The position numbers and the translations under genes were made by a program. Positions 11,141 through 40,810 of a DNA stretch of 44,127 nt are shown piece by piece. Source of the DNA: Aristaeella lactis (GTDB lineage: Bacteria > Bacillota > Clostridia > Christensenellales > Aristaeellaceae); contig NZ_CP069422.1 of the NCBI RefSeq assembly GCF_018118585.1, positions 1 through 44,127 on the forward strand, given 5' to 3'. Below the pieces are notes generated by a model. It worked only from the letters and a program-made list of their open reading frames with translations, was not told the origin of the DNA and made no database searches. Positions within the stretch are counted from its first letter, which is position 1. Every line of letters starts with the position of its first letter.

Positions 11141-11214
11141 CAAAGATGAAACAACAACATTCCTGATTATATTTCCAGATTTCAAACAAACTTTTATACA
11201 TTGTTTCATCTTTG
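11141..11214 (+). terminator. Long-loop inverted repeat between convergent genes
   Basis: CAAAGATGAAACAA (11141-11154) and TTGTTTCATCTTTG (11201-11214) are a perfect 14-bp inverted repeat with a 46-nt loop. A short T run follows on the plus strand. It lies after the MORN gene and overlaps the end of the oppositely oriented K+ channel gene. It could end plus-strand transcription, but the loop is long. Confidence 0.35.
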
Positions 11215-14147: not shown

Positions 14148-14186
14148 AAACACAACTCCTTTTTAGCATTTTGTTCTTGCGTCTGA

Positions 14187-15061: not shown

Positions 15062-18000
15062 ATGAGTGAGGCGAAAACTGATAGGGTTATAGAACGTAAA
15101 CTCGATTCTATGAAAAAGCAACTCCTCGATACAGGTAAGCGTAACCGAATGATAAATTATAGAGAAACTAAACGGGCAACGCTTCGTATTGTTACTCCTA
15201 CCTATAAAGATCTTTTTGATCGCCTTGCCATAAAAGAGGAATCGCTCAGTTTTCAGCATCCGATTGATCAGGATTATGATTTACGTGCATATCATTTTCT
15301 TACACTCATGAAAACACTAGGGCATGAAATACCTGTACGCATTGGAGATATAGAAACAAACGTAAGCACGCCATCCGAACAAAAAACAACACTAAGAAAT
15401 CTCCGTTCAAAAGCACGTCTAGCTCAAGAGGAGCAGGGAACAAATATCCTATATCTTTCGTTTGGGTTCATCAAATGGCGGGAAAAAAACAGCACTACAT
15501 CCCCTGTTATGGTTTCACCACTTATTATGGTTCCAGCTTCTTTGACAATTAAGGAATTGAATGCTCCTTACATGTTAAACCGGTATGATGATGATATTGT
15601 TGTTAACCCAACACTATCATATAAGTTTGAACATGAATTCAATCTGACTCTGCCAGAGTTTGAAGCCTCAGATGAGAATTCTTTGGACAAATACTTTTCA
15701 AAAATTGAAAAGATTGTCGACCAAAGAGGATGGCAACTTATCAGAGAAGTCAGCTTGGGATTGGTTTCTTTTCTTAAAATTAGTATGTACTATGATTTGG
15801 AAAAAAAGCATGACTGGTTAATGAAGAATCCCAACATCAGGGCTTTATGTGGAGATCCGGATGCTATTCAGTTGCCCGAAGAAGCTGCAAAACTAAACAA
15901 TCCCGATATGATTAATCCTATAGATCAGTATCAGGTGATTGATGCAGACTCCAGCCAGCAAAAAGCCATTCAGCTATCCAAGATGGGTGTTAGCTTTGTG
16001 ATGCAGGGCCCACCCGGAACCGGGAAAAGCCAAACAATAACTAATATTATAGCTGAAGCTTTAGCAAGTGGGAAAAAGGTCCTATTTGTATCTGAAAAAG
16101 CCGCAGCGCTTGAAGTAGTACTCCGTCGACTGAAAGAAGCTCATATAAGTGATTTCTGCCTGTCCCTTCATGATTATAAAGCTAATAAAAGAGATGTTTT
16201 GAAACAAATCGGTGATAATCTGAGAATGAAGAAAATCGCCGTTAAAAACACTGCTACAAATAATCTGGTCCGCTTGGCCAAAAGACGCGATGAGCTTAAT
16301 ACATATGCAAAAGAACTCCATGAAACAATTCAACCATTGAATATTTCATTGTATGAAGCCTTTGGCGAATTGGCGCAATATATTGAGCCGGTTGATTTTG
16401 TGTGTGAAATCAAAAACGTGGAAAAAATCTCTGAAATTGATTTTCAGATGATGTCATATAATGTTGGAAGATACATCAGAGCTTTCGAAGAAATGAGCTG
16501 TGGCTTCGCAGACAATCCGTGGAGAGGAACATTAGTTAAAACAACCAGCACATTGTACCTTACAGAATTAAAAACAAGAACTAGCAATCTACCCCATAAC
16601 ATTGCCAAAACGGTTGCCATAATGGCTATTCCAATCGGGCCGGATTCATGTCCTGACGCAACATTGGGAGATGTAAAAGAGGAAATTGAAAAGCTATCTC
16701 TGACTTTACGTATCCCTATTCATTCATATCAACTTCACTCTATGTCTGTTCCAGCAAGAAAGAAGTTATTACTTGCAGCAAAAACAGCCAGGCTCACGCA
16801 AAGTGCTTATCAGGAGACACTTTATGAATGCAAAAAAGTATATGATAATAGCGTCTTCAAAGCACCGTTTGAAAACTGGTTAATGAAATTCAATCAATAT
16901 CTACAGATAATAAAATGCTATTCTGGCTGGTTCTATTCTTCAGATGAAATGATTCTCAATCAATTGGATGCGATTGTTGAGAAAGCAAAAAAAGTTGATA
17001 TTCGTATACAACCGATTTTAAGAGACATTAAAACATTTCGTAGCGTTGCTGCTCTTTCAACAGAAGATGATGATATTTCGTTGCATGAAGCAGCGTCTTT
17101 CCTGAATAGGTTAAACAAGATACTGGATATTTCTTCTCCGTTTATTCCTTGTTGGCTAAATGCCAAAGAAGTGGAGGAAGCAAAGACACTGTTGATGGGT
17201 GCAGCAGATGCTGTACAAAAGCAAAATGCAACAGGAAACGAAATAGAGAAGCATTGGCTCTCAGGCGTGTTGCAATATGAATCTAAAGCATTGCAAAACA
17301 AATGTCTGTCCGTCATTTCAACTATCAGAAATCGAAAAATGGGTATTTTGCTAAAAGGAAACGTAGCTGAGGAACTAGAAAAAACAGCAGATGAGGCCAG
17401 GCAGACCCAGAGAAAATTGGAACAGTATACTGAAGCAGCAAACCAGGTCATGAAATGTTTCAATTTTGATATGGTGGATACATGGAAACAAATGGAATTC
17501 GCAAAGGAACTAGCACAGCTAGTTTCTGAATCATCGAGTGTTTTACCGCTATGGTTTAATCAAACACGTAGAAACGATGCAACATCTTATTTGCAAGAAG
17601 CAGAAAAAAAGACAAAACTGTATAAAGACAAGATGGAGTTGCTTAGCAAAGAATGGGATATTGGTATAGTCAATATCGATGCCAAAGAATTGTTAAGCAG
17701 ATTCAAAAAGAAATATGGCGGACTTTTTGGTCATATAAAAGCACAATATAAAAAAGATCTGGCTTCTATTCAAATTCATTCCAAGAACAATAACACAAAG
17801 TATACAGATGAGCAATTGATCAAAATGCTTTATCAGGTTAGGGATGCACAGGATGTGCTTTCCTGGTTTACTGAGAATGAAGTCATTTTACGCGGCGCTT
17901 TTGGACGACATTATCACAATGTAGACTCAAACTGGAAAGAGATAGCTTCTGGTCTGAACCAAGCACAGCATATTGTCAATACTGTTGATCGTTATAAGGG

Positions 18001-21000: not shown

Positions 21001-21517
21001 GTATCATACTCCGCCGACAAGAAAAGGCTATTCCGTGACATTGAATGATCATATTCTTTATGCCGTCTCAATCGAACAACCGATTAGCATGGATCTTCTT
21101 TGCCAAAGGCTGGCTCCGGTGCTTGGATTTAACAGAGTTACAACAAGAGTTACAACAGCTGTAGAATATGCAGTTTATTCACTAAAAGATAAACTTGATA
21201 AAAAAGATGGCTTTATAACAATGAAAGGATTCATTAATCCGATAGTAAGGATTCCAGCATATGGTGAGGAGCAGCGCTCAATTAACAATATTGCTCCATG
21301 CGAATTAATGGAAGCAATGAGGACTGTGGCTAAAAAAAGCTTTGGGCTAAATCGAGATGACTTAATCAATGAGACCAGCAAAGCTTTGGGTTATGCCAGA
21401 AAAGGGCCAAGAATTCAAACTGTACTAGAAAGCATACTCGGCGAACTGATCAAGAGGAATATTATTCATATGGTAGATGAAAAAGTTCATACTGTGGAGG
21501 CAACTATATATGGATAA
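15062..21517 (+). CDS. Giant DUF4011 / superfamily 1 helicase / Vsr-like (MTES_1575) nuclease with DUF3320 tail
   Basis: Protein of 2151 aa; the ATG follows AGGAG by 7 bases. The N-terminal DUF4011 region includes QLLDTGKRNRMINYRE. The helicase core is split by a ~1200-residue, mostly helical insertion. Walker A is QGPPGTGKS near 315-323, Walker B VIFDEAS near 1520, then AGDTRQLPP near 1547, NVQGDERDT near 1730 and RLNVAITRAK near 1770. A PD-(D/E)XK domain follows (GYKIDLAV near 1855, NVECDG near 1875, then a basic helix and GWYYYRVWSSEW). The last ~150 residues resemble DUF3320. DUF4011-helicase-Vsr proteins are found in antiphage defence clusters (I recall Hhe and ARMADA), so an ATP-driven nucleic-acid-cleaving effector is likely. 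It is the first gene of the cluster and overlaps the kinase gene by 8 bp. Confidence 0.92.
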   Translation: MSEAKTDRVIERKLDSMKKQLLDTGKRNRMINYRETKRATLRIVTPTYKDLFDRLAIKEESLSFQHPIDQDYDLRAYHFLTLMKTLGHEIPVRIGDIETNVSTPSEQKTTLRNLRSKARLAQEEQGTNILYLSFGFIKWREKNSTTSPVMVSPLIMVPASLTIKELNAPYMLNRYDDDIVVNPTLSYKFEHEFNLTLPEFEASDENSLDKYFSKIEKIVDQRGWQLIREVSLGLVSFLKISMYYDLEKKHDWLMKNPNIRALCGDPDAIQLPEEAAKLNNPDMINPIDQYQVIDADSSQQKAIQLSKMGVSFVMQGPPGTGKSQTITNIIAEALASGKKVLFVSEKAAALEVVLRRLKEAHISDFCLSLHDYKANKRDVLKQIGDNLRMKKIAVKNTATNNLVRLAKRRDELNTYAKELHETIQPLNISLYEAFGELAQYIEPVDFVCEIKNVEKISEIDFQMMSYNVGRYIRAFEEMSCGFADNPWRGTLVKTTSTLYLTELKTRTSNLPHNIAKTVAIMAIPIGPDSCPDATLGDVKEEIEKLSLTLRIPIHSYQLHSMSVPARKKLLLAAKTARLTQSAYQETLYECKKVYDNSVFKAPFENWLMKFNQYLQIIKCYSGWFYSSDEMILNQLDAIVEKAKKVDIRIQPILRDIKTFRSVAALSTEDDDISLHEAASFLNRLNKILDISSPFIPCWLNAKEVEEAKTLLMGAADAVQKQNATGNEIEKHWLSGVLQYESKALQNKCLSVISTIRNRKMGILLKGNVAEELEKTADEARQTQRKLEQYTEAANQVMKCFNFDMVDTWKQMEFAKELAQLVSESSSVLPLWFNQTRRNDATSYLQEAEKKTKLYKDKMELLSKEWDIGIVNIDAKELLSRFKKKYGGLFGHIKAQYKKDLASIQIHSKNNNTKYTDEQLIKMLYQVRDAQDVLSWFTENEVILRGAFGRHYHNVDSNWKEIASGLNQAQHIVNTVDRYKGLSLPLLSNVLEDEQNSKAIQEISQSILTGSNLTKLQNELISIHAYNTSSNISFVNTIIPILEALTADCYYVSQYVREMAQANKEGVTDLTLSQIEKLAQSLEAQEAYKQWFIDKADLIEKYTIGNDYNNESFWNQQLKHLNEAIDVRDVLTDKLLTEDLIGLLCDQTSLGKLQESARDIISRQNKEDISIVLQEGTDFINQKSKVKSFKELLCGVSDVLHAANDLKHLVMECNIYAIFDMEPSDVYSSIKTLVTAKEQKDKYNRVIVENNELISLFGEQEDWSSVIVILEYVNAMAINQDYKSKFTDDYIKYFCDSQVAREQVAQRLDKLRDLYPHLEEQISEFVSIFPDEDKLIERPLSLIADRYNKCMNNIEQLDMWLNYNDARKECIACGLENYVCIMEERNGKIKDAEGCFRYSFFQRWCQAVIASKPSIARFKKFTQDEAVNEFCKLDVEQFATAQQRIRAKIIDTYPDPNTSTAAGDEMSILQRELNKKAKIMPLRKLFRTIPNLLLRLKPCLMMSPLSVSYFLEADSYHFDMVIFDEASQVFPQDALGSVMRAKQVIIAGDTRQLPPTNFFSSNTANKDADFDSEDDEDDFIDEEISDSILEEADKVMRSSTLLWHYRSQNEQLIAFSNQEIYDNRLITFPGCKEHMKDTGVEFVYVKDGLYEGKPKNCNVLEAKKCVQLIEEHIKCHPSRSLGIIAFSEKQQQAILDEIQDFRELHPEYEFYFSEDKPDPFFVKNLENVQGDERDTIFFSVGYGYTKEQREKNKPMALRFGPLGRSGGERRLNVAITRAKVNIKLIASILPKDINLEKTDSTGIKLLHDYLNFARLGTDALHSSNDDTEHDIMCSVIKDFLVENGYSVTEKLGCSGYKIDLAVIHPQNPECYLANVECDGASFADAQTARERERLRKDVLERMGWYYYRVWSSEWVKNPDVEGKKLLAFLKEAEQRPFDYSSRSNEQISDQYFNDLVEEVVDKQEADEVNKYGFDEYVEADLYHTPPTRKGYSVTLNDHILYAVSIEQPISMDLLCQRLAPVLGFNRVTTRVTTAVEYAVYSLKDKLDKKDGFITMKGFINPIVRIPAYGEEQRSINNIAPCELMEAMRTVAKKSFGLNRDDLINETSKALGYARKGPRIQTVLESILGELIKRNIIHMVDEKVHTVEATIYG

Positions 21518-23243
21518 TCGAACTGTGATAAATCAGCAACTTGAAATGCCTATAGCAACAACGATTAATCCAGATGTTCAGCAGATGACAATGCCGATAG
21601 TTACAACTATTAATCCGGATACAGTTGAAGAAAGTAGAAATACTGAGTCGAATAAAGATAGCTGGTTGCAATCTGGAAGTAAACTCCAAGGTTCTGAAAC
21701 CTATACAGTTAGGCAAAAAATGAAAACAACCTCGGGAGAAGCAGATCTATATCTTTGCAAAACAGAATCTAACCGTATTGTTGTAGCAAAAGTTTATAAG
21801 CGTGAAAACCCACTGAAAACTGGCGTTGTTGAAGCGCTTAAAAGCATCAGATCTCCTTATGTAGCTCGAGTATATGATGTGTTTCTCTGGAATAATCACA
21901 CTGTTGTAATTCTTCAATTCTATAAGAATGGAAGTCTTAACGGTAAAACGTATTCATTGGAACAACTAAAGGCCATGATTATTCCAAATATTAATGAAGG
22001 TCTCAAGGCTATACACAGTGTTAATCTGCTTCACAAAGATCTAAAACCAGCCAATATAATGCTTTGTGACGATGGGCTATCTGTAGCGATTATTGACTTT
22101 GGTATTAGCTCACTACTTGAAGAAGGAGCAACTGTGTTACTGACCCAGACAGGTATGACACCTGTATACTCGGCACCCGAACTGTTTAAAGGCCTAGCAT
22201 TAGCAGAAGCGGACTATTATTCGTTTGGTATTACTTTGTATGAGCTTTTCTGTGGGAAAACGCCCTATTCAGATTTATCAGATGCTGAAATCGCAATGTT
22301 TTCCAGTATCCAAAGAATACCATTACCCAAGGAAATGCCGGGTGAATTGCAAAAGCTTATTGCTGCATTAACATATCCGGATATAACTAATAGACATGAT
22401 AAATCAAATCCTAACAGGAGATGGATGTATGATGAAGTAAGAAAATGGTTAACAGGAGAATCGATTATTTCTCCTGGCGGATTTGATACAACGGAGATAA
22501 ATCCTCTTGCTTTTGAGGGAAAGACATATCATACTGTTCGTGATCTTATTGAAGCAATGGGGCTAAACTGGAATGCCGGTAAAAGGCTTTTGTTTCACGG
22601 CTCCTTGGCAAATCATATTCGGGCAACCAACGCAGCAGCGTATGAGAGTTGTTGTGATGCAGTCAGAAAAGCTTCAGAAACCAATGCAAAGGACGATCTT
22701 GTCTTCTTTGAATTTTTGTATGATATGGTCCCCGAAATGGAAGCAATCTATTGGAAAGGAAGAAGATTTGCGTCTCCATCTGCCCTTGGAAGAGAGATGC
22801 TTGAAGCTCTCTGGAAAGAGAATGAATCACAGTATAAGCTATATGATACAATTCTTTCAGAACGAGTACTGTCAACATATGTCCTGTCAAAAGATTCCAA
22901 CAACAACGACTTGCTACAGGTGATAAAAAGGATAGAGAATCTTTGGAAGATTTCCAAGGATGAAAAACGTGATCTTAGATATGTATATTATCTATCTGCG
23001 TATCTCCTGTCGAATCAAAAAATCTTGAAGATTGATAATGAAGAAATAAGGACAGTCGATGAATTGTCAGATTATCTAAATCGAAAACTACAAGTTTCCA
23101 TAAAAACGTTTATTGAAGCCACTCATCAATTTGTCGATTATGACGGCAACCTGGATGTACAACTCGAAGCTTGGTTAACAGCTATCGGAAAAAAAGATGC
23201 TATTAACCAATGGAAAGAAGTACTTCGTAGTGGAGCCGAATGA
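21510..23243 (+). CDS. Hanks-type Ser/Thr protein kinase with N-terminal TxxN motifs (kinase 1)
   Basis: Soluble kinase of 577 aa; the ATG at 21510 follows GGAGG and overlaps the helicase stop by 8 bp. The first ~60 residues are unstructured and carry T-x-I-N three times (T5, T17, T32), twice within MPI[AV]TTINPD. The kinase domain runs from about 65 to 310: K94 (VAKVYK), the catalytic loop HKDLKPAN (H175, D177), DFG (D196) and SAPE. The Gly-rich loop is degenerate (GEADLY). A C-terminal ~260-residue helical region holds repeats of the type W-x-G-x-x-F-x-[ST]-x-x-x-L, also found in kinase 2. There is no membrane segment or PASTA domain, so it is not a PrkC-type surface sensor. It probably phosphorylates cluster partners read by the FHA protein. 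Confidence 0.92.
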   Translation: MDNRTVINQQLEMPIATTINPDVQQMTMPIVTTINPDTVEESRNTESNKDSWLQSGSKLQGSETYTVRQKMKTTSGEADLYLCKTESNRIVVAKVYKRENPLKTGVVEALKSIRSPYVARVYDVFLWNNHTVVILQFYKNGSLNGKTYSLEQLKAMIIPNINEGLKAIHSVNLLHKDLKPANIMLCDDGLSVAIIDFGISSLLEEGATVLLTQTGMTPVYSAPELFKGLALAEADYYSFGITLYELFCGKTPYSDLSDAEIAMFSSIQRIPLPKEMPGELQKLIAALTYPDITNRHDKSNPNRRWMYDEVRKWLTGESIISPGGFDTTEINPLAFEGKTYHTVRDLIEAMGLNWNAGKRLLFHGSLANHIRATNAAAYESCCDAVRKASETNAKDDLVFFEFLYDMVPEMEAIYWKGRRFASPSALGREMLEALWKENESQYKLYDTILSERVLSTYVLSKDSNNNDLLQVIKRIENLWKISKDEKRDLRYVYYLSAYLLSNQKILKIDNEEIRTVDELSDYLNRKLQVSIKTFIEATHQFVDYDGNLDVQLEAWLTAIGKKDAINQWKEVLRSGAE

Positions 23244-23284
23244 TAAAAAGAATGGGCATTCGTTAGTGGTATTCCGAATTGTGA

Positions 23285-23293
23285 TGCTATAAT
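23285..23293 (+). promoter_or_regulatory. Extended -10 promoter candidate before the coiled-coil gene
   Basis: TGCTATAAT is an extended -10 element in the 123-bp gap after kinase 1, the largest gap in the cluster. No good -35 hexamer is visible. It could give the downstream FHA, AAA+ and PP2C genes an internal promoter. Confidence 0.5.
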
Positions 23294-23366
23294 ACTTATT
23301 AACCGATAACGAGTTGTATATATCAGGAATCATTCATCTCATCGATAAAAAGGCGGGTGTGGGTTT

Positions 23367-24659
23367 ATGAGCGGACCTAAATCGTCAAGTTACACACTAA
23401 CTGCAGAACAAAGAAAAAAGATACTTGAGGAACAAAGGCGTCAAAGGGAACTCGAACAGGAACGTAAGCGTGTTGAAGCAGAAACGCAAAGAAAAGGTGG
23501 TTTACTGATTGAAATCAACAGTGAACTGGAAAAGCTTTCGCTTCAGATTGATAGATTGATCTTTTTGAAAAATGAATCGGAATATGATTTGCCGCTAATA
23601 GATGAGACAAAAAGCAAAATTGAAACCGTCAAAACCCAGATTGAAACTATTCGGAACAGGGAAACAACTACCTCATCAGAATTAAAGAGTCAAAATGAGC
23701 AATTATCTGGCTTACTGTACGAAATCTCTTCACATTATTCACTTTGCGCTGATCAGGTTTCAAAAGTCACAGACCGTTTTCATAAAGAACTTGATAGCAG
23801 AATTGCAGAAGGATTTCATCTGTCCTTTTCAAATCTTGGTGCTGATAAGCGGAAGAAAGACAGCACACAAATCATACGTATCAATGAAACAATGGCTCAG
23901 TTGTCAGGTATGACATTGTCTTCAAAATTGCAAAGTCATTTGAATGAAATCAAGAACAAAGCGGACACTATAACCGATCCGACTTTCTTAAGCAATTTCT
24001 ATTCGGTTGTGGTTGTTCCATTTGTTAAAGAATGTAGAGAATTCGAGGCTGTTCAGAAAGAGCATGACGAATTGATCATTCAATATGCAATACTAGCTGA
24101 AGAATGCAATGTAAGCACAAAACCAGTACCATACAGCAAGGAAGGTATTGAATTCGTAAAGAATGAAATAGCCAAACTCGAGCAACAATCCATGAAACAA
24201 AAAGAGAGCGAATATATTAAGAAAGCGCTTGATGAAGCAATGCGAGAAATGGGATATGATCTTATAGGAGATCGGGTTGTTGCGAAGAAGAGTGGAAAAC
24301 GAATTAGACATGAATTGTATTCTCTGTCAAATGGTACTGCTGTAGACGTCACATATTCAGAAAACGGTCAGATTACCATGGAGCTAGGAGGAATCGATCA
24401 GGTAGACAGACAACCGGATACAGACGAAAGTTTACAACTAGTCGAGGATATGCGAAGCTTCTGTACGGATTACGATGTCTTGGTAAAGCGACTAGCCGAA
24501 AAAGGTGTAAAAACTCAAAAGCTTTCCATTATGCCACCTTCTGTTGAATATGCTCAGATCATCAACTCTAATGACTATAGTATTAAAAAGCCGGTATCTC
24601 GTTATTCAGTTGTCAGTCATAGACAAACTGATACTTCAGTCATGCACAGGGAGAATTGA
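23367..24659 (+). CDS. Coiled-coil protein beginning MSGPKSSSYTLT
   Basis: Soluble protein of 430 aa; the ATG at 23367 follows AAGGCGGG. The opening MSGPKSSSYTLTAEQR leads into a highly charged helix (KKILEEQRRQRELEQERKRV) and a long coiled coil to about residue 300. A compact C-terminal domain follows (YDLIGDRVVAKKSGKRIRHE, then LYSLSNGTAVDVTYSENGQI). I recognise no catalytic motif. The Ser/Thr-rich start is a plausible phosphorylation or processing tag. Placed between a kinase and the FHA protein, it may be the scaffold or main phosphorylated substrate; that is inference from position. Confidence 0.72.
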   Translation: MSGPKSSSYTLTAEQRKKILEEQRRQRELEQERKRVEAETQRKGGLLIEINSELEKLSLQIDRLIFLKNESEYDLPLIDETKSKIETVKTQIETIRNRETTTSSELKSQNEQLSGLLYEISSHYSLCADQVSKVTDRFHKELDSRIAEGFHLSFSNLGADKRKKDSTQIIRINETMAQLSGMTLSSKLQSHLNEIKNKADTITDPTFLSNFYSVVVVPFVKECREFEAVQKEHDELIIQYAILAEECNVSTKPVPYSKEGIEFVKNEIAKLEQQSMKQKESEYIKKALDEAMREMGYDLIGDRVVAKKSGKRIRHELYSLSNGTAVDVTYSENGQITMELGGIDQVDRQPDTDESLQLVEDMRSFCTDYDVLVKRLAEKGVKTQKLSIMPPSVEYAQIINSNDYSIKKPVSRYSVVSHRQTDTSVMHREN

Positions 24660-24661
24660 GT

Positions 24662-25276
24662 ATGGAGAAGTTCAAAATATGCCCTTTATGTGGCAAACGT
24701 AATGCGCCGATTGCACTCGAATGTGAAGTATGCGAAACCGATATCTCCACAATCCGCCCCATGGATGAAGAGACAATAAAAACATCCATAGACGCTGCAG
24801 AGCAACCCAGTACAATCCCTTTGACAATGGCAAGAATTTGTGAAGAATGCGGATTCAGGAATCCACCCAACTCAAGGAAATGCCAACAATGTGGTGAAGA
24901 TATTTCGGATGTTATTCCAACGAAAGTGGAATCTGTTAAGCGTATCCACTTTATTCTGTCCAGCTTGGATGGAGAATTTGCCTTTCCGATACCAGAAGGA
25001 AAAACAATTATCGGCCGAGAAGCTGCCATGTCTGAATATCTGACAAATAAGTGCTTCGTTAGCCGAAACCATGCAAAAATTATTTTGGAAAACGGCAAGA
25101 TAACAGTTGAAAACATAAGTAAAACTAACTATACATATATAAACAACGAGAAAATCACCGGCGATACTGTTGAACTGCATGATGGTGATATTATGGGTTT
25201 GGGTGGGAATGAAAAAGACGGGAAACGCCAAGATCAGGCTGCCTATTTTATGGTGAGGATTGGTTCATGTATATAG
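24662..25276 (+). CDS. Double zinc-ribbon FHA-domain protein
   Basis: Protein of 204 aa. The ATG at 24662 follows AGGGAG; a TTG six bases earlier is unlikely. It has two zinc ribbons, C7-x2-C10 with C21-x2-C24 and C60-x2-C63 with C74-x2-C77. A C-terminal FHA domain (about 95-200) follows, with IIGRE, VSRNHAKI, ENISKTNYTYIN and LHDGDIMGLGG. FHA domains bind phospho-threonine. The Arg of GRE and the SRNH motif that contact the phosphate are present, so it should be a working reader of the kinases' products. The start is 2 bp after the previous stop, and the end overlaps the radical SAM gene by 10 bp. Confidence 0.92.
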   Translation: MEKFKICPLCGKRNAPIALECEVCETDISTIRPMDEETIKTSIDAAEQPSTIPLTMARICEECGFRNPPNSRKCQQCGEDISDVIPTKVESVKRIHFILSSLDGEFAFPIPEGKTIIGREAAMSEYLTNKCFVSRNHAKIILENGKITVENISKTNYTYINNEKITGDTVELHDGDIMGLGGNEKDGKRQDQAAYFMVRIGSCI

Positions 25277-25875
25277 CGCGTATTCTTTATCCGGTTAAGG
25301 TGCTCGGTCCAGGCGATCGAATCGTGATCTGGTTCGCAGGCTGTGAACATCAATGTCCCGGATGTAGTAATCCAGAATTATGGGATCAGAACGAACGCTA
25401 TCATACTGATCTAAACTCTGTGATGAATTTGATTAATCTGATTGTCGATCAGCATAAAGTCGATGGCTTTACCATCACTGGTGGAGATCCGTTTTATCAA
25501 CCGAATGCACTTAAGGAATTGTTATATGAACTAGCAAAGATTTCTTCGGACATTCTGGTCTACACTGGATATTCATATAACAAGATCAAAGATATATATT
25601 CCGATATCCTTGGTGATATTGCAGTATTGATTGACGGAAAGTACATTGAAGCAGAGAATCACGGCTCATTGCTAAGAGGATCCGATAATCAAGACATCCT
25701 GATTCTGAATGAGAATGTACGGCCTATTTATGAAAATTATCTATCAACACATACAAGTAGCATTCAGAATTTTTCAACAACTGATGGAATCATTTCAGTG
25801 GGCATTCATCATCCCAGGTATGAAGAACAATTACTAGAAATTAGCAAAAGAAAAGGATTGGAGGTTAAGTCATGA
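25267..25875 (+). CDS. NrdG-like radical SAM / 4Fe-4S single-cluster activase
   Basis: Iron-sulphur enzyme of 202 aa; the ATG at 25267 lies inside the end of the FHA gene. C26-x3-C30-x2-C33 (GCEHQCPGC) binds the radical SAM [4Fe-4S] cluster, and GGDP (72-75) is the SAM-binding motif. Overall it resembles the anaerobic ribonucleotide reductase activating protein. NrdG installs a glycyl radical on NrdD, but no nrdD or other glycyl-radical enzyme is in the window. Here it is locked between FHA and AAA+ genes by overlaps of 10 and 4 bp. A dedicated role in this cluster, such as modifying a partner protein or sensing oxygen or SAM, is inferred. Confidence 0.88.
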   Translation: MYIARILYPVKVLGPGDRIVIWFAGCEHQCPGCSNPELWDQNERYHTDLNSVMNLINLIVDQHKVDGFTITGGDPFYQPNALKELLYELAKISSDILVYTGYSYNKIKDIYSDILGDIAVLIDGKYIEAENHGSLLRGSDNQDILILNENVRPIYENYLSTHTSSIQNFSTTDGIISVGIHHPRYEEQLLEISKRKGLEVKS

Positions 25876-27746
25876 GCGAGGTTATTCTTTCCAAGTGGCA
25901 TCAGGAAATGGATATTTTCAGAAAAATCAAACCATGCTTGATTATGGAAGGGAACATACTGGATAGTTATATGTATCCGCTGGAAGGAAGTCTTCCTCAA
26001 GGCTCCATTGTCAGACTTACAGACTATTTACATTACTATTTCAAGGATATTGGTTATGAAAACATTGTAATGTATGATGGCATCCGGGGTTTTTATAACA
26101 AATGTGAAGACGGATATATCCAGAAATTTGCTGATCTCGTTAACGTTAGTATTGCAGGCAATCGTAGTATTATTGCTGAGTTTCGCGGCAAGGGAACAGG
26201 ATCTGCTGCATTGATGGTAGAAACAGCACTTATTCAGAATGAATCGCCTACAGTTGTGATTATGGACTTCGCTTCGCGGTATATTTGTGACCCTTCTCAT
26301 CTAACGCAACCCGAAATAGATGGTTTCACCATTTTAATGCAGGCTTCACTGGATGCACAAGAAGTCAAAACGGAAAATGGAATTCTGAAAAATCTAGTCA
26401 TTCTTTTAGTCAACAAGCTTAATGACGTTCCTGCTTGGTATTATCTGGATAATCCAAATGTTAAAGCGATTTTGCTTAAAACTCCTTCCAAGGAAGAACG
26501 GATTCAGATGGTAAAAGGAGTCAATTTCAAAGCATTCTTTACAAATAAAATATACCAGGAAGATTATCCATATTATGAGAATCACCCTGATGAATTGGAA
26601 AAAATCCAAGATCGTTTTATAGGCTTAACAGAGGGTTTTACCTTTACGGAATTAAACGGACTCAGAAGATTGTGCAAGAATCAAGGAATTAGAATTAATG
26701 ATTTGTGTTCCATTATTGACTTGTACAAATTTGGCATCAAAGAAAACCCATGGAACAAACTTAATCCGGATGATTTTAAGGATGCTTATGCAGACTTCGA
26801 GAAACGCGTTAAAGGACAGCCGAATGCTCTGACTCAGACGTTGGATGTGATTAAGCGAGCAATGACTGGAATGGCTGATATTTCCGCATCGACTCATGGA
26901 AAACCGAAAGGTGTCCTCTTCTTTGCTGGGCCTACCGGTACCGGCAAAACAGAAACAGCAAAGACAATTGCTGAAAAGCTTTTCGGTGATGAGAGTGCTT
27001 GCATTCGCTTTGACATGAGCGAATTCGGGCAGAGCCATAGCGATCAGCGCTTACTGGGTGCTCCTCCTGGATATGTCGGTTATGAAGCTGGTGGTCAACT
27101 GACTAATGCAGTAAAGAATAATCCGTTTAGTATTCTCTTATTTGATGAAATCGAAAAAGCACACCCCTCAATTTTAGATAAATTCCTGCAGATCCTTGAA
27201 GACGGAAGAATGACCGATGGCAAAGGCGAAACGGTTTACTTCTCTGAAACGGTTATTATCTTTACAAGCAACCTCGGCATCTATGAGCGTGGACAGAACG
27301 GAGAACGAATACAAATGGTATCTTCTGATATGTCCTATGACGAGGTTAAAAAAACTGTTCGTCAGGGAATTGACAATTACTTCAAGCTCCAACTTGGCAG
27401 ACCGGAAATTCTAAACCGTATCGGAGAAAACATCGTTGTCTTTGACTTTATTCGACCCGAGATAGCCGAAAAGATTTTAAAGGCACAACTAGATAAAATA
27501 GTGGTAAATCTGCACACGAACAAGAAAGTGGAACTAACTATTACCAATAGAGCATTTAATGTCCTCAAGAACAAAGCATTAAACAATCTTGAAAATGGTG
27601 GCCGTGGAATTGGCAATATTGTTGAAAGCTGCTTCGTTAATCCCCTATCAAGATATATGTTTGATAATAAACTGCTAAATAATTGCCAGATTACGATTGA
27701 AGATATACAAGCCGAATCAATGCCATATTCAATTATAGCAACATAA
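25872..27746 (+). CDS. ClpA/ClpB-like AAA+ ATPase with a degenerate N-terminal module
   Basis: Protein of 624 aa, coupled to the previous gene by a 4-bp ATGA overlap. The C-terminal half is a Clp/Hsp100 D2-type AAA+ domain. It has Walker A GPTGTGKT (353-360), the aromatic pore loop GYVGYE (near 400), Walker B LLFDEIEKAH (D425, E426), sensor IFTSN, arginine finger LNRIGENIV and the D2 lid (GGRGIGNIVE). The N-terminal ~300 residues look like an AAA+-related fold without a Walker A motif (IKPCLIMEGNILDSYMYP, VVIMDF, LVILLVNKLND), so probably an inactive first ring or adaptor. The usual Clp N-domain and M-domain are absent. It is likely an unfoldase or remodeller of cluster proteins; ClpP docking is not evident. 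Confidence 0.9.
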   Translation: MSEVILSKWHQEMDIFRKIKPCLIMEGNILDSYMYPLEGSLPQGSIVRLTDYLHYYFKDIGYENIVMYDGIRGFYNKCEDGYIQKFADLVNVSIAGNRSIIAEFRGKGTGSAALMVETALIQNESPTVVIMDFASRYICDPSHLTQPEIDGFTILMQASLDAQEVKTENGILKNLVILLVNKLNDVPAWYYLDNPNVKAILLKTPSKEERIQMVKGVNFKAFFTNKIYQEDYPYYENHPDELEKIQDRFIGLTEGFTFTELNGLRRLCKNQGIRINDLCSIIDLYKFGIKENPWNKLNPDDFKDAYADFEKRVKGQPNALTQTLDVIKRAMTGMADISASTHGKPKGVLFFAGPTGTGKTETAKTIAEKLFGDESACIRFDMSEFGQSHSDQRLLGAPPGYVGYEAGGQLTNAVKNNPFSILLFDEIEKAHPSILDKFLQILEDGRMTDGKGETVYFSETVIIFTSNLGIYERGQNGERIQMVSSDMSYDEVKKTVRQGIDNYFKLQLGRPEILNRIGENIVVFDFIRPEIAEKILKAQLDKIVVNLHTNKKVELTITNRAFNVLKNKALNNLENGGRGIGNIVESCFVNPLSRYMFDNKLLNNCQITIEDIQAESMPYSIIAT

Positions 27747-27782
27747 TTTTTTCTCCTGAAAAATAACAAGGAGGTTGCTTCG

Positions 27783-28538
27783 ATGACATTTCGAGTATCA
27801 TTTTGTATAGAGTCTGGGAAAAACAAGAAACTATGCGATGATTCAGCTTTGGTTGGCACCTCTATCATTAATGACGAAACTGGTGTTTTGGAAGTTAATG
27901 TTCCTACATGGATATGTTTATGTGATGGTGTTGGCGGAAATGCTGGAGGTCAAGAAGCATCATTGTTTGTTACACAAAAACTAAGTACTGCAGCAATTCC
28001 AACCAGCATAGAGGATGTAAAGAGAATTGCTGTAGATATTAACACTAATCTTCTGGAGCAAGCTGTTAATACTATTGACCATAAAACAATGGCTACAACA
28101 GCCACTGCAATTTGTTTTACATATGATTCTGTATTCATGTTTCACGTTGGAAACACTAGGCTATATTCCAAACGTGGGCCTTACATTCAGCAGATAACTG
28201 TCGATCAAACAACATATCAATGGTTACTTGATCGAGGCAACATTGAGGCGGCGGAAGCATGCAACAAAAGTGAAATCACGGGCGCCATGGGAGGCGGAAG
28301 AGCAGACTTATTAAACCCTATTGTTGTTGAACAAATATTCGAAAGAAAAATCCCTACCACCATCATACTAACAACAGATGGTGTTCATGAATTTCTATGC
28401 CAAGACGAAATTGAAGAAGTCCTGGCCAATGATAAAACCATGTTAGAGAAAGCACAAATGCTTTGTAAGCAAGCACTGGAGCAAGGTTCGGACGATGATA
28501 GATCTGTAATAATAATAGAATCCATTAACAGGAATTAA
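27783..28538 (+). CDS. PP2C-family Ser/Thr phosphatase
   Basis: Metal-dependent phosphatase of 251 aa with a very strong ribosome site (AAGGAGGTT). Metal-binding residues are in place: DDSA (19-22), CDGVGG (D48), GNTRLY, TTDGVHEF (D199) and SDDDRSV (D237-D239). It is the natural antagonist of the two cluster kinases. No regulatory domain is attached. Gaps of 36 bp upstream and 13 bp downstream keep it in the operon. Confidence 0.93.
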   Translation: MTFRVSFCIESGKNKKLCDDSALVGTSIINDETGVLEVNVPTWICLCDGVGGNAGGQEASLFVTQKLSTAAIPTSIEDVKRIAVDINTNLLEQAVNTIDHKTMATTATAICFTYDSVFMFHVGNTRLYSKRGPYIQQITVDQTTYQWLLDRGNIEAAEACNKSEITGAMGGGRADLLNPIVVEQIFERKIPTTIILTTDGVHEFLCQDEIEEVLANDKTMLEKAQMLCKQALEQGSDDDRSVIIIESINRN

Positions 28539-28551
28539 GGGGTATAAACCA

Positions 28552-30066
28552 ATGGATGAAAAGACTCTTGCCAAACTTGATGAACTTGGTGTAGATTTTT
28601 ATTCCTTACGTCATTATAAGTTGCTTAAGCTCTTTAATATTGCGGGCATTGAAGAAAGTGAAGACATTGTTGATGAAATGCTCTCCAATGATCAGTATTT
28701 AGAAGAGTACGGCTTAAGACAATCTATCAAACAAGGTTCTGTTATTTATTTCGGGAAATATAGTGAAGATTATGGCGAATTTGCTAATAAGCCCATAGCA
28801 TGGAAAGTAGTCGATATAAACAACGATGAAATGTTGCTTATATCTTGGTTTATACTTGATAATTTGACCATGTTTAACGACCAAGTTATATCAACATGGA
28901 AAAATTCATATTTACGAGCATGGCTAAACAATACTTTTTTGATTTCGTGTTTTACACCTTCTGAAAGAGAAAAAATCTTATATACACAATTAATAAATGA
29001 GGAAGAAGCCACATCTGACAAAGTTTTTCTGTTCAACGAGAAAATGGTAAATACTTATTCAAGCATATTAAAAGACTGCCAATCTTTACAATGCTCATAT
29101 CAATATAATACGTGGTGGCTTAGTTCTATCAAAGCACTAAAGCCAGATTGGAGTTATTCCTATAACTATTATATGACCTATGCAAGTATGACAACCGCAG
29201 AAGTAAGTAATACTTCAACAGATTCAGCACGAGGAGTTCGTCCTGCCCTGCGTTTATCTATCAAATCAAAGATATTTAAGCCAATTACAATTCCAAGAGA
29301 CAATATCATATCAATGCATATGGCGCCTATACTATTCGGATCTTATCCTCAGGGAGAAAGTGAAGATGTTATATCGCCTATTGAATGGATCATAATCTCC
29401 GCTACTAGCAGCTACGTGAAATTGATGAGCAAATATGTTCTAGACTGGAAGCCATTCAATACTAAAATGAAGTCCAAAGATAAACAAGTATGGATTGGAA
29501 GTCTCCTGGAGAAATGGCTAAACGAAGAATTTCTTTATAAGGCATTTTCAGAGCATGAACGTTCGCTTATTTTGAAAAATGATAGTGGTCTCACAGATGA
29601 CACATATGATGAATTTTGTCCAGATTATGCTGTCCCAGACGCAGTTCCAAGACATACGCATGTTGAAGATTTAGTTCATGTTATGTGTCCAAGCTACGAT
29701 GAATGCCCTGGAATTGGAACATACAAGAATCGAAAGCATGGAGAAAACCATGGGTATTTTAGTCGTTGGGAACCTAAAAATGATATAAAAGGAACAGGAG
29801 ATTCTATCGCATTTCCAACACAATTAGCCATCTCACATGGAGCTCCTTCTGAAGGAAGCTGTAAATATTGGTTGCGTTCACTTGGAAGCTTTGGAGGCAA
29901 TGAAGCTATTGCGGATGAAGAAGGTTGGTTGAATGCCTTGGAATTCGATTCTTATGCTGGTGTAAGGCCAGTCATCACACTTGATCTTACTACAGATGTT
30001 TTGAAATACATCCGCAACAATAGCATATTGACTAGTCATTCCATATACAAGAGGTGGCCGATTTAA
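28552..30066 (+). CDS. Tandem DUF6273 protein
   Basis: Protein of 504 aa with two copies of a domain I match to DUF6273. Copy 1 runs from IYFGKYSEDYGEFANKPIAW through SWFILDN and YLRAWLNNTFL to WWLSSI and ARGVRPALRLS. Copy 2 runs from ILFGSYPQGE through IEWIIIS and LEKWLNEEFL to YWLRSLGSFG and YAGVRPVITLD. The first ~65 residues are a separate helical segment. DUF6273 is frequent in clostridia, often at the C-terminus of exported or kinase-associated proteins, but this one has no signal peptide. Its role is unknown; target recognition or binding is a guess. The stop codon overlaps the kinase 2 start by 1 bp (TAATG). Confidence 0.83.
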   Translation: MDEKTLAKLDELGVDFYSLRHYKLLKLFNIAGIEESEDIVDEMLSNDQYLEEYGLRQSIKQGSVIYFGKYSEDYGEFANKPIAWKVVDINNDEMLLISWFILDNLTMFNDQVISTWKNSYLRAWLNNTFLISCFTPSEREKILYTQLINEEEATSDKVFLFNEKMVNTYSSILKDCQSLQCSYQYNTWWLSSIKALKPDWSYSYNYYMTYASMTTAEVSNTSTDSARGVRPALRLSIKSKIFKPITIPRDNIISMHMAPILFGSYPQGESEDVISPIEWIIISATSSYVKLMSKYVLDWKPFNTKMKSKDKQVWIGSLLEKWLNEEFLYKAFSEHERSLILKNDSGLTDDTYDEFCPDYAVPDAVPRHTHVEDLVHVMCPSYDECPGIGTYKNRKHGENHGYFSRWEPKNDIKGTGDSIAFPTQLAISHGAPSEGSCKYWLRSLGSFGGNEAIADEEGWLNALEFDSYAGVRPVITLDLTTDVLKYIRNNSILTSHSIYKRWPI

Positions 30067-32924
30067 TGGATAATCATCAATCAGAAAATAAAACTATATT
30101 TAATCAAAATATAGATAGTAGTGAAACAGTATTGAATTCTGCCATAAACGCTCAAGAAACTATTATTAACACAGAATTAAGCACGGGAAATTCTATTCCT
30201 CTCGGAACCATCTTATGCGAAGTTTATGAAGTGATTGAAAAGCTGGATGTCATAGCAGGAGAAGCTGATTTATATATATGTTCTTTTGCAGCAAGAAAAT
30301 ATATAGCGAAAGTTTATCGTCGAAAAATAGCAATTAAACCTGAAGTCGCAAAAAGGTTGGCAGAAATTCGTTCACCTTTTGTTGCACGCATCTTTGCAAT
30401 GGGTGAATACAATGGATATCCTGTTGAAATATTACCTCTGTATATAAACGGAAGTCTTGCCGGAAAAACCTTCTCCTTCGAACAATTAAAATATGAGATT
30501 ATTCCTTCGGTTAATGAAGGCCTGCATATACTTCATACAAATAATATTATACATAAGGATGTAAAGCCCTCGAACCTTATGCTAAACAACGATGGGAGAA
30601 CAGTTGCAATAATCGACTTCGGAATCAGTTCTATAAGGGACAGTGGAAGCACAGTAATTGTTACTAGAACAGGATTGACACCTGAGTATTCCGCACCTGA
30701 AACGTTTAGAAACCTCTTCTTAAGCGAATCAGATTATTATTCATTTGGAATAACCATCTATGAATTATATTGTGGACATTCTCCAAGTCAGGGCCTTACG
30801 CAGGAACAGATTGAGCAATTCACCTTGATCCAACAACCTCCAATTCCTGATGATATGGAAGAAGAGCTGAAGGATTTAATTAATGCATTGACATATACTG
30901 ATATCAGAAACCGAAAAGATAAATCAAATCCCAATCGACGTTGGGGCTATGAAGAAGTTATTAATTGGTGCAATGATGTTCCACAACCTTTACCCGGCAT
31001 CTCTGGAACATCCTCAAATACATTAGCTTATAAAGCACAAAAAACGATATATCAAAACGTATCTTCAGATGAAGATATGCTTCCCTATAGATTCGCTGGA
31101 CAAAGCATAACCAGTACGAAAGTGTTAGCAAAACTGCTTAATGAAAGATGGGATGAAGGGAAAAAGCATCTCTTTAGGGGGCTTCTGCTAGAACATTTCA
31201 AGAAAGACTCAAATGCAGAAATAATTAGCTACTTAATGGATTTCCAAGAAGAAGCAGAAACTGCAAATCCTGATGTCTTAATGTTTCGATGCATATATGC
31301 AATAGACTCGTCGCAAAAAAAGCTTTTATGGAAAGGAGAAATCTTCGATAATCTATCAGAACTGGGATATCAATATCTCAAGGCAATTCGTTCAGAAAAT
31401 ACCACATTCATTGATATGATGAATGAAATGCAATTCATGGGAATCCTTTCACTGTATGTTCAAATCATAGATCCTACTGCAAAAAAACAAATCAACACAC
31501 TAAGAGCAATTGAATCAGAGTACAGATCATTTAGTGGAAGTAAAGAAGAGTCTCTATCCAAGCAGTATCGTTTGGCATATATGCTTTCAGATAAGAAAGA
31601 TTATGAGATAGATTCTAATCTGTTTAGCGATATACCAAGTTATGTTAAACACATCAATGAAAAAGCAACTAAAAATGGCAATACTTTTGAATACGAATTG
31701 CGTTCCGACATTTATCCGAATGGGAACTTCAATGCACAGTTTATAAACTGGATCCAAGCGATAGATCGTTCTGATATTCTTGGACAAAGCATTGACAAAA
31801 AAGACGAGGCTTTTTTCGATCTTATTTATAGAATCAACCCTGATTACAAATCTCTATCTTGGAATAATAATCAGTATGCTAACATATATGACCTTGGTGT
31901 TAAATACCTCTCTGCTCTTCGTTTGGAAAAGGTTGCAATAATTTCAACCATAGATGAATTATTTGAAAATAAATGTGTCTCCCGATTCTTAAGATATACC
32001 TCACCATCAGAAAAAAACAATATTGATCGGATAGAATTATTCGAGCAACAATTTAAAAATGTTGTTTCTAAACATGATAGAGAAAGTATGGTATTCCGTT
32101 TCAAGTTAGCCTATGAACTATCGGGAGATAAAACTCTATATATCGGCAAGAAACACTTCAGTTCTCTTGAGGACCTTGTATCTTTCCTTCATAGTCAATT
32201 CAGCAATTCACTCAAGTTATTTGACGAGTACTGTAACGAATTGATGATTGACGATTATACTTTATGCCCTCAATTTGAAGTTTGGTTAGCAGTCTTAGGA
32301 AAGAGCAAAGCAATAGATTCATGGGCATCTGGGGCTCCATTTATGACCAAAAAAGAAAAAGCGCTAAAATTCAGAGAATACATACTAAAAATCGAACAAG
32401 GGCAAAATATATCTCTCCATAATAGATATAAATGGTATTCAGAACTAGCAAGTATATTTGACGAGTTTACTCCTTTTGAAGCCTCTGCCTCATATGCAAA
32501 AAAATGCAGATACTATGCTGAAGAGGCAATTAAACTAGTCACAAAGCAAAAAAGAATTGCTGAGTATAAAAAGATACTTGCAAAACTTGATGATAAAAAC
32601 ACTATACCACAAGACCAACGTGAAGAATGGTATCTTTCCCTTGCTGAAGAATTATCTGAATATGCTGATATTGAAGAGGTTCAAGAAAAAATCAATCAGT
32701 GCAAAAAAGAAGCCAGGACATATCATATCATTTGCTTATATAATGATGCTATACGCTTAAAAGCTAAAGCGCAACGAGCAAATAATGAAGAGCGGCGCGA
32801 ACTCTATGCTAAAGCTGCTGCATTATTTGCATCTCTGGGAACTGCTTACGAAGCCGATAAAATGGCAAAAGAGTGCGAAAATCTAGCTAGGATTGAAAGT
32901 GCAAATGATGTAAATGGCATATAG
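30066..32924 (+). CDS. Large Ser/Thr protein kinase with TxxN array and C-terminal repeats (kinase 2)
   Basis: Soluble kinase of 952 aa and paralogue of kinase 1. The ATG at 30066 follows AGAGGTGG; an earlier GTG at 30054 is less likely. T-x-[FLI]-N occurs at T10, T21 and T32, exactly 11 residues apart. The kinase domain covers about 50-300: K82 (IAKVYR), HKDVKPSN (H163, D165), DFG (D184) and SAPE. The rest is a long array of ~130-residue helical repeats marked by LLWKGEIFDNLSELG, LSWNNNQYANIYDLG and LYIGKKHFSSLEDL, then a charged TPR-like helical tail (840-940). The repeats suggest a binding platform. It is the last gene of the cluster; a good terminator follows at 33014. Confidence 0.92.
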   Translation: MDNHQSENKTIFNQNIDSSETVLNSAINAQETIINTELSTGNSIPLGTILCEVYEVIEKLDVIAGEADLYICSFAARKYIAKVYRRKIAIKPEVAKRLAEIRSPFVARIFAMGEYNGYPVEILPLYINGSLAGKTFSFEQLKYEIIPSVNEGLHILHTNNIIHKDVKPSNLMLNNDGRTVAIIDFGISSIRDSGSTVIVTRTGLTPEYSAPETFRNLFLSESDYYSFGITIYELYCGHSPSQGLTQEQIEQFTLIQQPPIPDDMEEELKDLINALTYTDIRNRKDKSNPNRRWGYEEVINWCNDVPQPLPGISGTSSNTLAYKAQKTIYQNVSSDEDMLPYRFAGQSITSTKVLAKLLNERWDEGKKHLFRGLLLEHFKKDSNAEIISYLMDFQEEAETANPDVLMFRCIYAIDSSQKKLLWKGEIFDNLSELGYQYLKAIRSENTTFIDMMNEMQFMGILSLYVQIIDPTAKKQINTLRAIESEYRSFSGSKEESLSKQYRLAYMLSDKKDYEIDSNLFSDIPSYVKHINEKATKNGNTFEYELRSDIYPNGNFNAQFINWIQAIDRSDILGQSIDKKDEAFFDLIYRINPDYKSLSWNNNQYANIYDLGVKYLSALRLEKVAIISTIDELFENKCVSRFLRYTSPSEKNNIDRIELFEQQFKNVVSKHDRESMVFRFKLAYELSGDKTLYIGKKHFSSLEDLVSFLHSQFSNSLKLFDEYCNELMIDDYTLCPQFEVWLAVLGKSKAIDSWASGAPFMTKKEKALKFREYILKIEQGQNISLHNRYKWYSELASIFDEFTPFEASASYAKKCRYYAEEAIKLVTKQKRIAEYKKILAKLDDKNTIPQDQREEWYLSLAEELSEYADIEEVQEKINQCKKEARTYHIICLYNDAIRLKAKAQRANNEERRELYAKAAALFASLGTAYEADKMAKECENLARIESANDVNGI

Positions 32925-33012: not shown

Positions 33013-33048
33013 ATCTCTATGCTTAATAAGCATAGAGATAATTTTTTT
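33013..33048 (+). terminator. Rho-independent terminator ending the kinase cluster
   Basis: TCTCTATGCTT (33014-33024) pairs with AAGCATAGAGA (33028-33038), followed by a T run (33042-33048). It lies 90 bp after the kinase 2 stop and separates the cluster from the recombinase-like genes. A weaker inverted repeat (AATGATA...TATCATT, 32963-32982) precedes it. I see nothing else in the 32925-33205 gap. Confidence 0.85.
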
Positions 33049-39448: not shown

Positions 39449-39458
39449 ATCAATCACC

Positions 39459-40727: not shown

Positions 40728-40810
40728 TTTCACCCCTCCTTTGAATGAGGCGAAAAGCGGGGCAGGCTCGCAGAACCTGCCAACCTTTCCGGAAGTATAT
40801 GCCGCAGCCG

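Follow-up and report, generated by a model that had tools for sequence, protein, structure and literature searches.

Gene content and layout of the cluster

The DNA analysed in this study (hereafter the window, meaning the whole stretch of 44,127 bases) is the entire second contig of the two-contig, 3.45-Mb genome of Aristaeella lactis (G000; assembly GCF_018118585.1, contig NZ_CP069422.1). It carries a cluster of nine plus-strand genes, g1 to g9, that combine protein kinases, a phosphatase, an FHA protein, a two-ring ATPase and a radical SAM protein with a large helicase-nuclease. An earlier note on this DNA had described nine co-oriented genes with overlaps or very small gaps, apart from 123 bp before position 23367, and had proposed that they form a defence or stress system. 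The layout was recovered at exactly these coordinates (15062-32924), and most of the open reading frames (ORFs) overlap. In order, the junctions are a 41-bp overlap, the 123-bp gap, overlaps of 4, 10 and 4 bp, gaps of 36 and 13 bp, and a 13-bp overlap. The genes, with the basis of each assignment in brackets, are as follows:

15062..21517, plus strand: g1, DUF4011 - superfamily 1 (SF1) helicase - MTES_1575 (Vsr-like) nuclease, 2151 amino acids (aa); predicted effector (Pfam, PADLOC, NCBIfam, motifs)
21477..23243, plus strand: g2, Ser/Thr kinase with its own C-terminal region, 588 aa (Pfam; HxD, DFG and APE present)
23367..24659, plus strand: g3, MSGPK coiled-coil protein and small alpha/beta part at the C-terminus, 430 aa; core gene (recurrence in the core)
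24656..25276, plus strand: g4, double zinc ribbon + FHA (phosphothreonine reader), 206 aa; core gene (Pfam, profiles)
25267..25875, plus strand: g5, NrdG-like radical SAM protein, 202 aa, CX3CX2C present; core gene (Pfam, NCBIfam, motif)
25872..27746, plus strand: g6, ClpB/ClpC-like two-ring ATPase, 624 aa; core gene (Pfam, NCBIfam, model, Foldseek, patterns)
27783..28538, plus strand: g7, PP2C-type phosphatase, 251 aa; core gene (Pfam, NCBIfam, motifs)
28552..30066, plus strand: g8, tandem DUF6273 protein, 504 aa; accessory (Pfam)
30054..32924, plus strand: g9, second Ser/Thr kinase with a longer C-terminal region, 956 aa (Pfam, motifs)

The domains named in the earlier note were borne out by Pfam and NCBIfam, with g5 below the NrdG cut-off and g7 below its cut-offs in both. 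In g1, Pfam recognised DUF4011 (117 bits), AAA_11/AAA_12 helicase parts and the MTES_1575 nuclease (95 bits); a DUF3320 match fell below the cut-off (21.2 vs 25). The Pkinase scores of g2 and g9 were 114 and 96 bits, g4 showed FHA (50 bits) together with the double zinc ribbon, g5 matched Fer4_12 (104 bits) and Radical_SAM, the AAA_2 match of g6 (164 bits) covered the second half only, and g8 matched DUF6273 in two stretches. The phosphatase g7 scored below the cut-offs of both PP2C_2 in Pfam (21.4 vs 24) and the Stp1-type PP2C model in NCBIfam (112 vs 230 bits), yet its DGxGG, TDG and DD motifs are present. No Pfam family matched g3 above cut-off, and its predicted model was of low confidence (mean pLDDT 55.7), too low for a structure search. 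By pattern, the helicase, nuclease, both kinases, PP2C phosphatase and radical SAM protein of the window have their catalytic motifs, as does its ATPase in the second half.

A six-gene core recurs in other genomes

The unit that recurs is a six-gene core composed of a kinase, the MSGPK coiled-coil protein (the coil), the zinc-ribbon/FHA protein, the NrdG-like radical SAM protein, the ClpB/ClpC-like ATPase and the PP2C phosphatase. Core loci were searched for with a profile of the ATPase N-terminal domain (N-domain) in two partly overlapping scans. Beyond the genome of origin, strong matches were obtained in 5 of 391 genomes in the scan of the class (with 7 weak matches at 20-26 bits) and in 12 of 398 in the scan of the phylum (with 2 weak matches near 43 bits). 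The neighbourhoods of all 17 were retrieved, and their genes were assigned with profiles made in this analysis. The radical SAM gene was found in 17/17, the coil in 13 (11 of the MSGPK type and 2 of type C, described below), the zinc-ribbon/FHA gene in 12, the kinase in 11 and the PP2C gene in 9. The complete core was present in seven (G302, G290, G699 and four species of one genus), and a Mokosh-like five-gene form in two (G164 and G838). These counts are lower bounds, because the contigs of L118, L138, L140 and L141 stop within the cluster or next to it. By the test that the earlier note itself had set, its claim that all nine genes form a unit fails, given that the nine co-occur in none of the 17 other neighbourhoods. 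A co-occurring system does exist in the form of the six-gene core, which is also found without the DUF4011 helicase.

Many of the scan loci had entered the profiles before the final annotation. Independent detections were provided by single-sequence phmmer searches (L118-L122, L013 and L014) and by L137-L148, which were annotated with profiles built without them. In these 12 second-scan loci, profiles blind to them found the radical SAM gene in 12, the coil in 9, FHA in 8, the kinase in 8 and PP2C in 7. When 71 ClpB-type loci (987 kb) were used as a control, the coil, FHA and PP2C profiles gave 0 matches at >=20 bits, and the radical SAM, kinase and two helicase profiles gave one match each at >=30 bits, the control stretches being shorter (mean 13.9 kb vs up to 20 kb for core loci).

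Catalytic motifs are widely retained among the relatives: CX3CX2C was found in 32/34 radical SAM proteins, the PP2C active-site motifs in 11/11 loci, and HxD and DFG each in 13/14 core kinases. The g3 protein had no match in plasmids by tblastn and, among 150 relatives, one match only besides its own genome; g1 peptide patterns found none in viral contigs. For the ATPase, the best 80 of 600 matches in viral contigs start at residue 188 or later and are without the N-domain, and 9 among the best 80 of 589 matches in genome contigs were full-length or nearly so.

Three forms of the system

The loci fall into three forms. Type A is the phospho-core described above (kinase, coil, FHA, radical SAM, ATPase and PP2C); in Actinomycetota, a metagenome-assembled genome (L013) holds five of the six core genes (coil, ATPase, radical SAM, FHA and PP2C), and a Streptomyces locus (L014) holds a kinase, the ATPase and a radical SAM gene 5.5 kb off. 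In type B, the ATPase, radical SAM protein and coil are accompanied by a protein of about 2100 aa that joins a kinase, DUF4011, a helicase and an MTES_1575 nuclease. This fusion was found in one ORF in Bradyrhizobium (by Pfam, L010) and, by profile, in Burkholderia, Sphingomonas, one Rhizobium and Caballeronia; two further Rhizobium copies are split across two ORFs, and the Sphingomonas radical SAM gene comes from a separate scan. Where its start is clear (L010 and L015), the type B coil begins with MSGPK or VSGPK. By eye, the N-terminus of the fusion shows Cys pairs resembling those of a zinc ribbon, and Pfam matched no zinc-ribbon family there at E 0.01.

Type C consists of an MkoA-like helicase, a PIN protein, a coil, the ATPase and the radical SAM protein. 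Plasmids of five proteobacterial genera (Moellerella, Acinetobacter, Photobacterium, Polaromonas and Leisingera) carry it, as do the two scan genomes G164 and G838. The plasmid sample comprised 18 records that match the ATPase over >=80%, of which nine were fetched, together with L097 at 54%. In the type C locus L094, the helicase scored 320 bits against MkoA and the PIN protein weakly (23 bits) against MkoB; PIN_4 was matched in L094, and the counterpart in L121 is without a Pfam family. By megablast, the Moellerella cluster had no match in E. coli genomes. In a Gallionella locus (L011), the ATPase and radical SAM genes were accompanied by a weak coil match (34 bits).

In a tree of 37 ATPase rows (L141, whose ATPase is cut at a contig end, was left out), type B lay on one side of a branch (support 100/100) and type C likewise (100/99), and type A did not. 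The window is a type A system plus a separate, unfused effector gene like that of type B, and its significance lies in this combination. The effector is exchangeable, with at least two kinds, of which the DUF4011 helicase-nuclease is one, and the effectors of the window, of type B and of type C all resemble families for which antiphage models exist.

The DUF4011 helicase-nuclease is linked to the kinase

Relatives of g1 at E 1e-30 were present in 24/245 genomes of the class, the own genome included. In the two closest by identity (L256 and L257, 48-49%), a kinase gene directly follows the helicase gene; the contig of L256 ends there, and in L257 a coil gene follows 0.9 kb beyond the kinase. 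The helicase-kinase link is therefore real, the two being neighbours in two other clostridial-class genomes and fused in Proteobacteria. As determined by phmmer, the C-terminal region of g2 recurs in the kinases of L257, L137, L119, L122 and L120. A protein resembling g8 (34 bits) adjoins a kinase and a coil in L088.

The predicted unfoldase and the radical SAM protein

The AlphaFold2 model of g6 (mean pLDDT 84, pTM 0.63) aligned over its full length with ClpC in Foldseek (667 columns, E 3e-30), with ClpB and ClpA lower in the list. Against the two-ring chains of ClpC, ClpB and ClpA, the TM-score was 0.44-0.46 and the root-mean-square deviation 11.5, so the domain arrangement may differ from that of Hsp100 proteins. 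By pattern, the second ring of g6 has Walker A and a GYVG pore loop, and the first ring is without Walker A. The same division was seen in the family: the Walker A pattern is absent from the first 300 residues in 36/37 ATPase relatives (all but L102, whose start appears to be late), and the later part has Walker A in 36/37 and a G-Y/F-V-G pore loop in 34/37. On model and patterns, g6 is predicted to be an Hsp100 two-ring ATPase with an active, pore-loop-bearing second ring and a first ring without Walker A.

Against TIGR02491 (NrdG), g5 scored 110 bits, below the cut-off of 126.1; it is nevertheless the top match of this model in its own genome, the second scoring 37 bits. Its best PDB match was pyruvate formate-lyase activase (E 1e-4); both are short, like NrdG. 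NrdG and pyruvate formate-lyase activase act upon a protein partner. One simple pattern for the glycyl-radical motif found none in the window proteins. Across 32 loci (L141, L089 with its broken radical SAM gene, and four stand-alone ATPases, which have no radical SAM row, were left out), distances of the ATPase and of the radical SAM protein correlated with r = 0.91, a value that 0/5000 permutations reached, shared host ancestry being still included. This correlation is compatible with a physical ATPase-radical SAM pair, and also with plain co-inheritance.

Pairing of an AAA ATPase with an NrdG-like protein recurs outside the g6 family. On plasmids (L098-L101 and L103), another AAA ATPase is paired with an NrdG-like radical SAM gene, with DUF2997 genes in 3/4 annotated records (Rhodococcus, Arthrobacter, Paenarthrobacter and Paenibacillus), and in Treponema such a pair lies within a contractile-injection-like cluster. 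We take the ATPases found with DUF1257/DUF2997 genes and an NrdG-like gene to be Ycf46-like; a common N-domain of g6 and these ATPases was considered and rejected, because the hhalign comparison fell short of significance (probability 1.5%, E 0.035).

The element, its neighbouring genes and stand-alone ATPases

The other features of the window are as follows:

4471..5607, minus strand: tyrosine integrase of the element (PF00589 53 bits, PF14659 65 bits)
11206..12102, minus strand: ion channel on the element (PF00520 143 bits)
12801..14153, minus strand: DUF4236 protein adjoining the cluster
33013..33039, plus strand: terminator-like hairpin of 12 pairs, just 3' of g9
38920..44127: direct copy of 203-5476, 94.8% identity (self-comparison)

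The end repeat contains 59 mismatches and 153 gap openings, most of them 1-2 bases long, and the contig ends have no exact terminal overlap. Judged from the repeat, the contig is probably a circle of about 38.7 kb with an unpolished overlap, and that overlap probably accounts for the numerous small ORFs at 39-44 kb, which would be artefacts. The location on an integrase-bearing element that the earlier note had given is upheld. A profile of the first 90 residues of the DUF4236 protein also matches in L119, L137 (52 bits) and L091 (58 bits). The terminator statistic is weak, because 16 hairpin-type sites were counted in the region vs 11.3 +/- 3.5 in shuffles; promoter-like sites in the region showed no excess over shuffles. 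The guanine-cytosine (GC) content of the cluster region is 0.34-0.40, vs 0.54-0.56 in three chromosome samples. The protein encoded at 33206-36301 was found in 1/45 genomes of the host genus, only in G000, which is also the only one of the 45 with two full-length ATPase matches (the pair in G027 are fragments).

Type III-A CRISPR genes lie within 10 kb of the core in 3/4 loci of one genus: Csm3, Csm4 and Cas10/Csm1 scored over cut-off in L142, and Cas10/Csm1 and Csx1 were found in L146; the neighbours of L145 match those of L142 by eye. The core ATPase is present in 4/12 genomes of this genus and is therefore accessory there. Because they are closely related, the four loci count as one case. 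Taken together, the low GC content, the occurrence on plasmids, the integrase, the probable circle and the type III CRISPR neighbours in one genus indicate a mobile conflict system.

The chromosome of the host carries a second ATPase copy (57% identity) with one small same-strand neighbour gene, the pair lying at L087 8887-11446, and no other core gene beside it; within the genus, the neighbourhood of a stand-alone ATPase was inspected in this genome only. Together with the copies of L007-L009, this copy forms one branch in a seven-row group (100/100) that also contains the window, L118 and L137. The stand-alone partner gene is related to a gene adjoining PP2C in L137 (84 bits, hhalign 99.3%). 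On one reading, the two-gene pair is what remains of a type A system after reduction; the direction of reduction is one that we infer, because the tree is unrooted.

Interpretation and alternative explanations

We consider that the window cluster is one effector-bearing form of a widespread mobile system, in which an unfoldase whose first ring is inactive, a radical SAM protein and a coil stand under the control of kinases, a PP2C phosphatase and an FHA protein, and that it is likely antiphage; the probability that we give to this explanation is roughly 0.6. The functional unity of the cluster and its kinase/PP2C/FHA wiring, both put forward in the earlier note, are supported. The predicted and most likely role is an antiphage (anti-invader) one.

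In the mechanism that we propose, the kinases would sense an infection cue, perhaps through their C-terminal regions, and then phosphorylate core proteins. The FHA protein would read phosphothreonine and gather the coil, the unfoldase and the helicase, and the active second ring of the ATPase would thread or remodel a partner. The radical SAM protein might activate or mark the partner presented by the unfoldase, the DUF4011 helicase-nuclease would then attack invading nucleic acid, and the PP2C phosphatase would reset the switch. The trigger, the order of events and the substrate of the radical SAM protein are those that we infer. A bolder proposal, which we hold only tentatively, is that of an undescribed immune machine in which a dead-ring Hsp100 and a dedicated radical SAM protein constitute a phospho-switched core that is plugged into differing effectors, with radical chemistry, on a protein that the unfoldase presents, licensing the nuclease. 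In this joint proposal, the effectors would be the DUF4011 helicase-nuclease, a Mokosh-like helicase with a PIN protein and, possibly, type III CRISPR or His-Xaa-Ser peptides, a combination that we regard as rather doubtful. If true, these ideas would describe a defence architecture spanning the phylum of the window (whose nearest named relatives are Clostridia), Actinomycetota and Pseudomonadota, would connect immunity with both radical SAM chemistry and unfolding by Hsp100 proteins, and would permit a direct test of the role of a kinase/PP2C/FHA switch in defence.

Several observations weigh against a phospho-controlled antiphage system with this effector. The DUF4011 helicase adjoins the core in 0/17 scan loci. 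Among the 19 genomes with the core or part of it, a strong g1 match was found only in G000 and G164, and in G164 the helicase lies on a different contig from the type C core. Apart from L256 and L257, the remaining 12 of the 14 DUF4011 loci that were fetched are without kinase or coil; these include L255, which has the top single bit score (36% identity, nearly full length), and L259, a 3.6-kb contig too short for judgement. The C-terminal regions of g2 and g9 had no phmmer match in the proteobacterial fusion proteins, one of the 14 core kinases is without HxD and another without DFG, and on a Geminocystis plasmid (L092) the ATPase and radical SAM genes lie 9 kb apart with a weak coil match (18 bits). 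His-Xaa-Ser genes adjoin the core in L119 (2917-6815, with HxsA3, HxsB and HxsC over cut-off) and in L137 (17321-20000, HxsB), and L122 has VirD4-like (conjugation-like) and ClpP-like genes, both below cut-off; with such neighbours, the output of the core is therefore perhaps not always defence. Four clostridial loci (L007-L009 and L087) hold the ATPase without other core genes. The N-domain matches in 39/45 genomes of the host genus, and in 13/13 of the good ones; not every family member is therefore likely to be a defence protein. A search of 50,697 phage records found no match to the N-domain, a result listed on this side and of little weight either way.

The absence of an adjoining DUF4011 helicase from the scan loci, the breadth of the ATPase in the genus, the His-Xaa-Ser neighbours and the 12 DUF4011 loci without kinase or coil would all be expected if the core were a general phospho-controlled machine for protein remodelling or stress and the helicase-nuclease of the window an independent defence gene that shares its island. 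We consider this unlikely, given that, in five proteobacterial genera, the same core includes a single ORF that joins a kinase to a like helicase-nuclease, that helicase and kinase are neighbours in L256 and L257, and that type C cores carry a different helicase resembling an antiphage one. Kinase-PP2C-FHA-ClpV wiring is known from type VI secretion; no secretion cluster was seen by eye in the ORF lists, for which no dedicated scan was made. Another explanation, to which we give still less credence, is an abortive toxin of the KKP kind, in which the kinases would be toxic effectors restrained by PP2C, and the helicase-nuclease, ATPase and radical SAM protein would regulate or sense. Two kinases with active-site motifs, a PP2C phosphatase and an FHA protein come near the KKP parts list, as set out in the available part of PMC11341870, but the KKP kinases themselves bear the FHA and cold-shock domains, whereas FHA lies here on a separate protein, and a second kinase was seen in no scan locus.

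It is very improbable, in our estimate, that the cluster is a loose collection in which g5 is a stand-in NrdG for the class III ribonucleotide reductase of the host. The chromosome does encode an NrdD (C1:2930848-2932536, 537 bits), none of the ORFs listed for the surrounding 12 kb has a CX3CX2C motif, and g5 is the best NrdG candidate of the genome. However, this NrdD lies outside the window, g5 stays below the NrdG cut-off, and a radical SAM gene stands in every scan neighbourhood, with distances that track those of the ATPase.

Comparison with known systems

The earlier note knew of no named system with this full set of genes; consistent with this, the full set was named nowhere in Pfam, NCBIfam, PADLOC or the open-access literature searched (most subscription journals lay outside this scope), in which DUF4011 is mentioned in 3 papers. 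The PADLOC and NCBIfam profiles scanned recognise single proteins only, namely the DUF4011 giant and, in part, the kinases and the ATPase. The g1 protein matches the PADLOC candidate PDC-S37 with 1308 bits in 3 stretches (best 642-1544 of 1550), a model that gives no cut-off and covers g1 alone. It scored 1187 bits against ProA (NF058533), below the cut-off of 1500, and 805.5 bits against Hhe (NF042953), below the cut-off of 2000. The Hhe and ProA models describe one protein each, whereas here kinases, coil, FHA protein, radical SAM protein, ATPase and PP2C phosphatase accompany g1.

Mokosh has a kinase part (the MkoA helicase with a kinase, accompanied by MkoB; or MkoC), and the present systems share its logic of kinase, helicase and nuclease. 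Type C differs in that it adds the coil, the two-ring ATPase and the radical SAM protein, and has PIN_4 in place of the PLD-like domain of Mokosh. The match of g1 to MkoA was partial (79 bits), and Pfam scans found no PLD family in the nine cluster proteins or in the type B (L010) and type C (L094) proteins scanned. The PLD-like domain is listed for Mokosh in the available part of PMC10952713. According to the accessible portion of PMC11341870, KKP consists of a PP2C and a pair of kinases, which bear an FHA and a cold-shock domain, respectively. The likeness to KKP lies in two kinases, a PP2C phosphatase and an FHA domain; the difference is that neither cluster kinase has an FHA or cold-shock domain at E 0.1 in Pfam, and that the cluster adds the unfoldase, the radical SAM protein, the coil and the helicase-nuclease. 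The TerY-P triad of the CoCoNuT systems likewise ties a PP2C, a kinase and a zinc ribbon to a helicase and a nuclease, as far as the available part of PMC11090510 describes it. The vWA domain of TerY-P is absent from the nine cluster proteins in Pfam scans, and 'radical SAM' does not occur in the main text of that paper (PMC11090510).

Regarding MADS, the MAD6 kinase model gave 84 and 81 bits for the cluster kinases vs a cut-off of 460. For type VI secretion, g6 scored 221 bits against ClpV (cut-off 885), and no Tss family was found by Pfam among the 19 window proteins. Assignment of g5 to NrdG itself is not borne out, its score being too low and NrdD not adjoining. The Hsp100 features of two rings and an active second ring with a pore loop were found in g6 by model and patterns, with the difference that its first ring is without Walker A. 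Phospho-regulated defence is known in kind, and the core is undescribed in the databases and papers searched.

In P. aeruginosa, the genes that we take to be named 'probable chaperone' (PA2725) and 'probable radical activating enzyme' (PA2726) presumably lie beside PA2727, which we assume to be the DUF4011 gene flanking the core defence hotspot cDHS1. In the available parts of the respective papers, PA2727 is called 'Similar DNA helicase' (PMC3697988) and 'histidine kinase' (PMC4918941), and the DUF4011 flank of cDHS1 is described as present in every isolate (PMC10250203). On this basis, and in part on the assumed PAO1 names, the cDHS1 flank would be a type B core; if so, the system described here may explain why DUF4011 and radical SAM genes flank the main P. 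aeruginosa defence hotspot.

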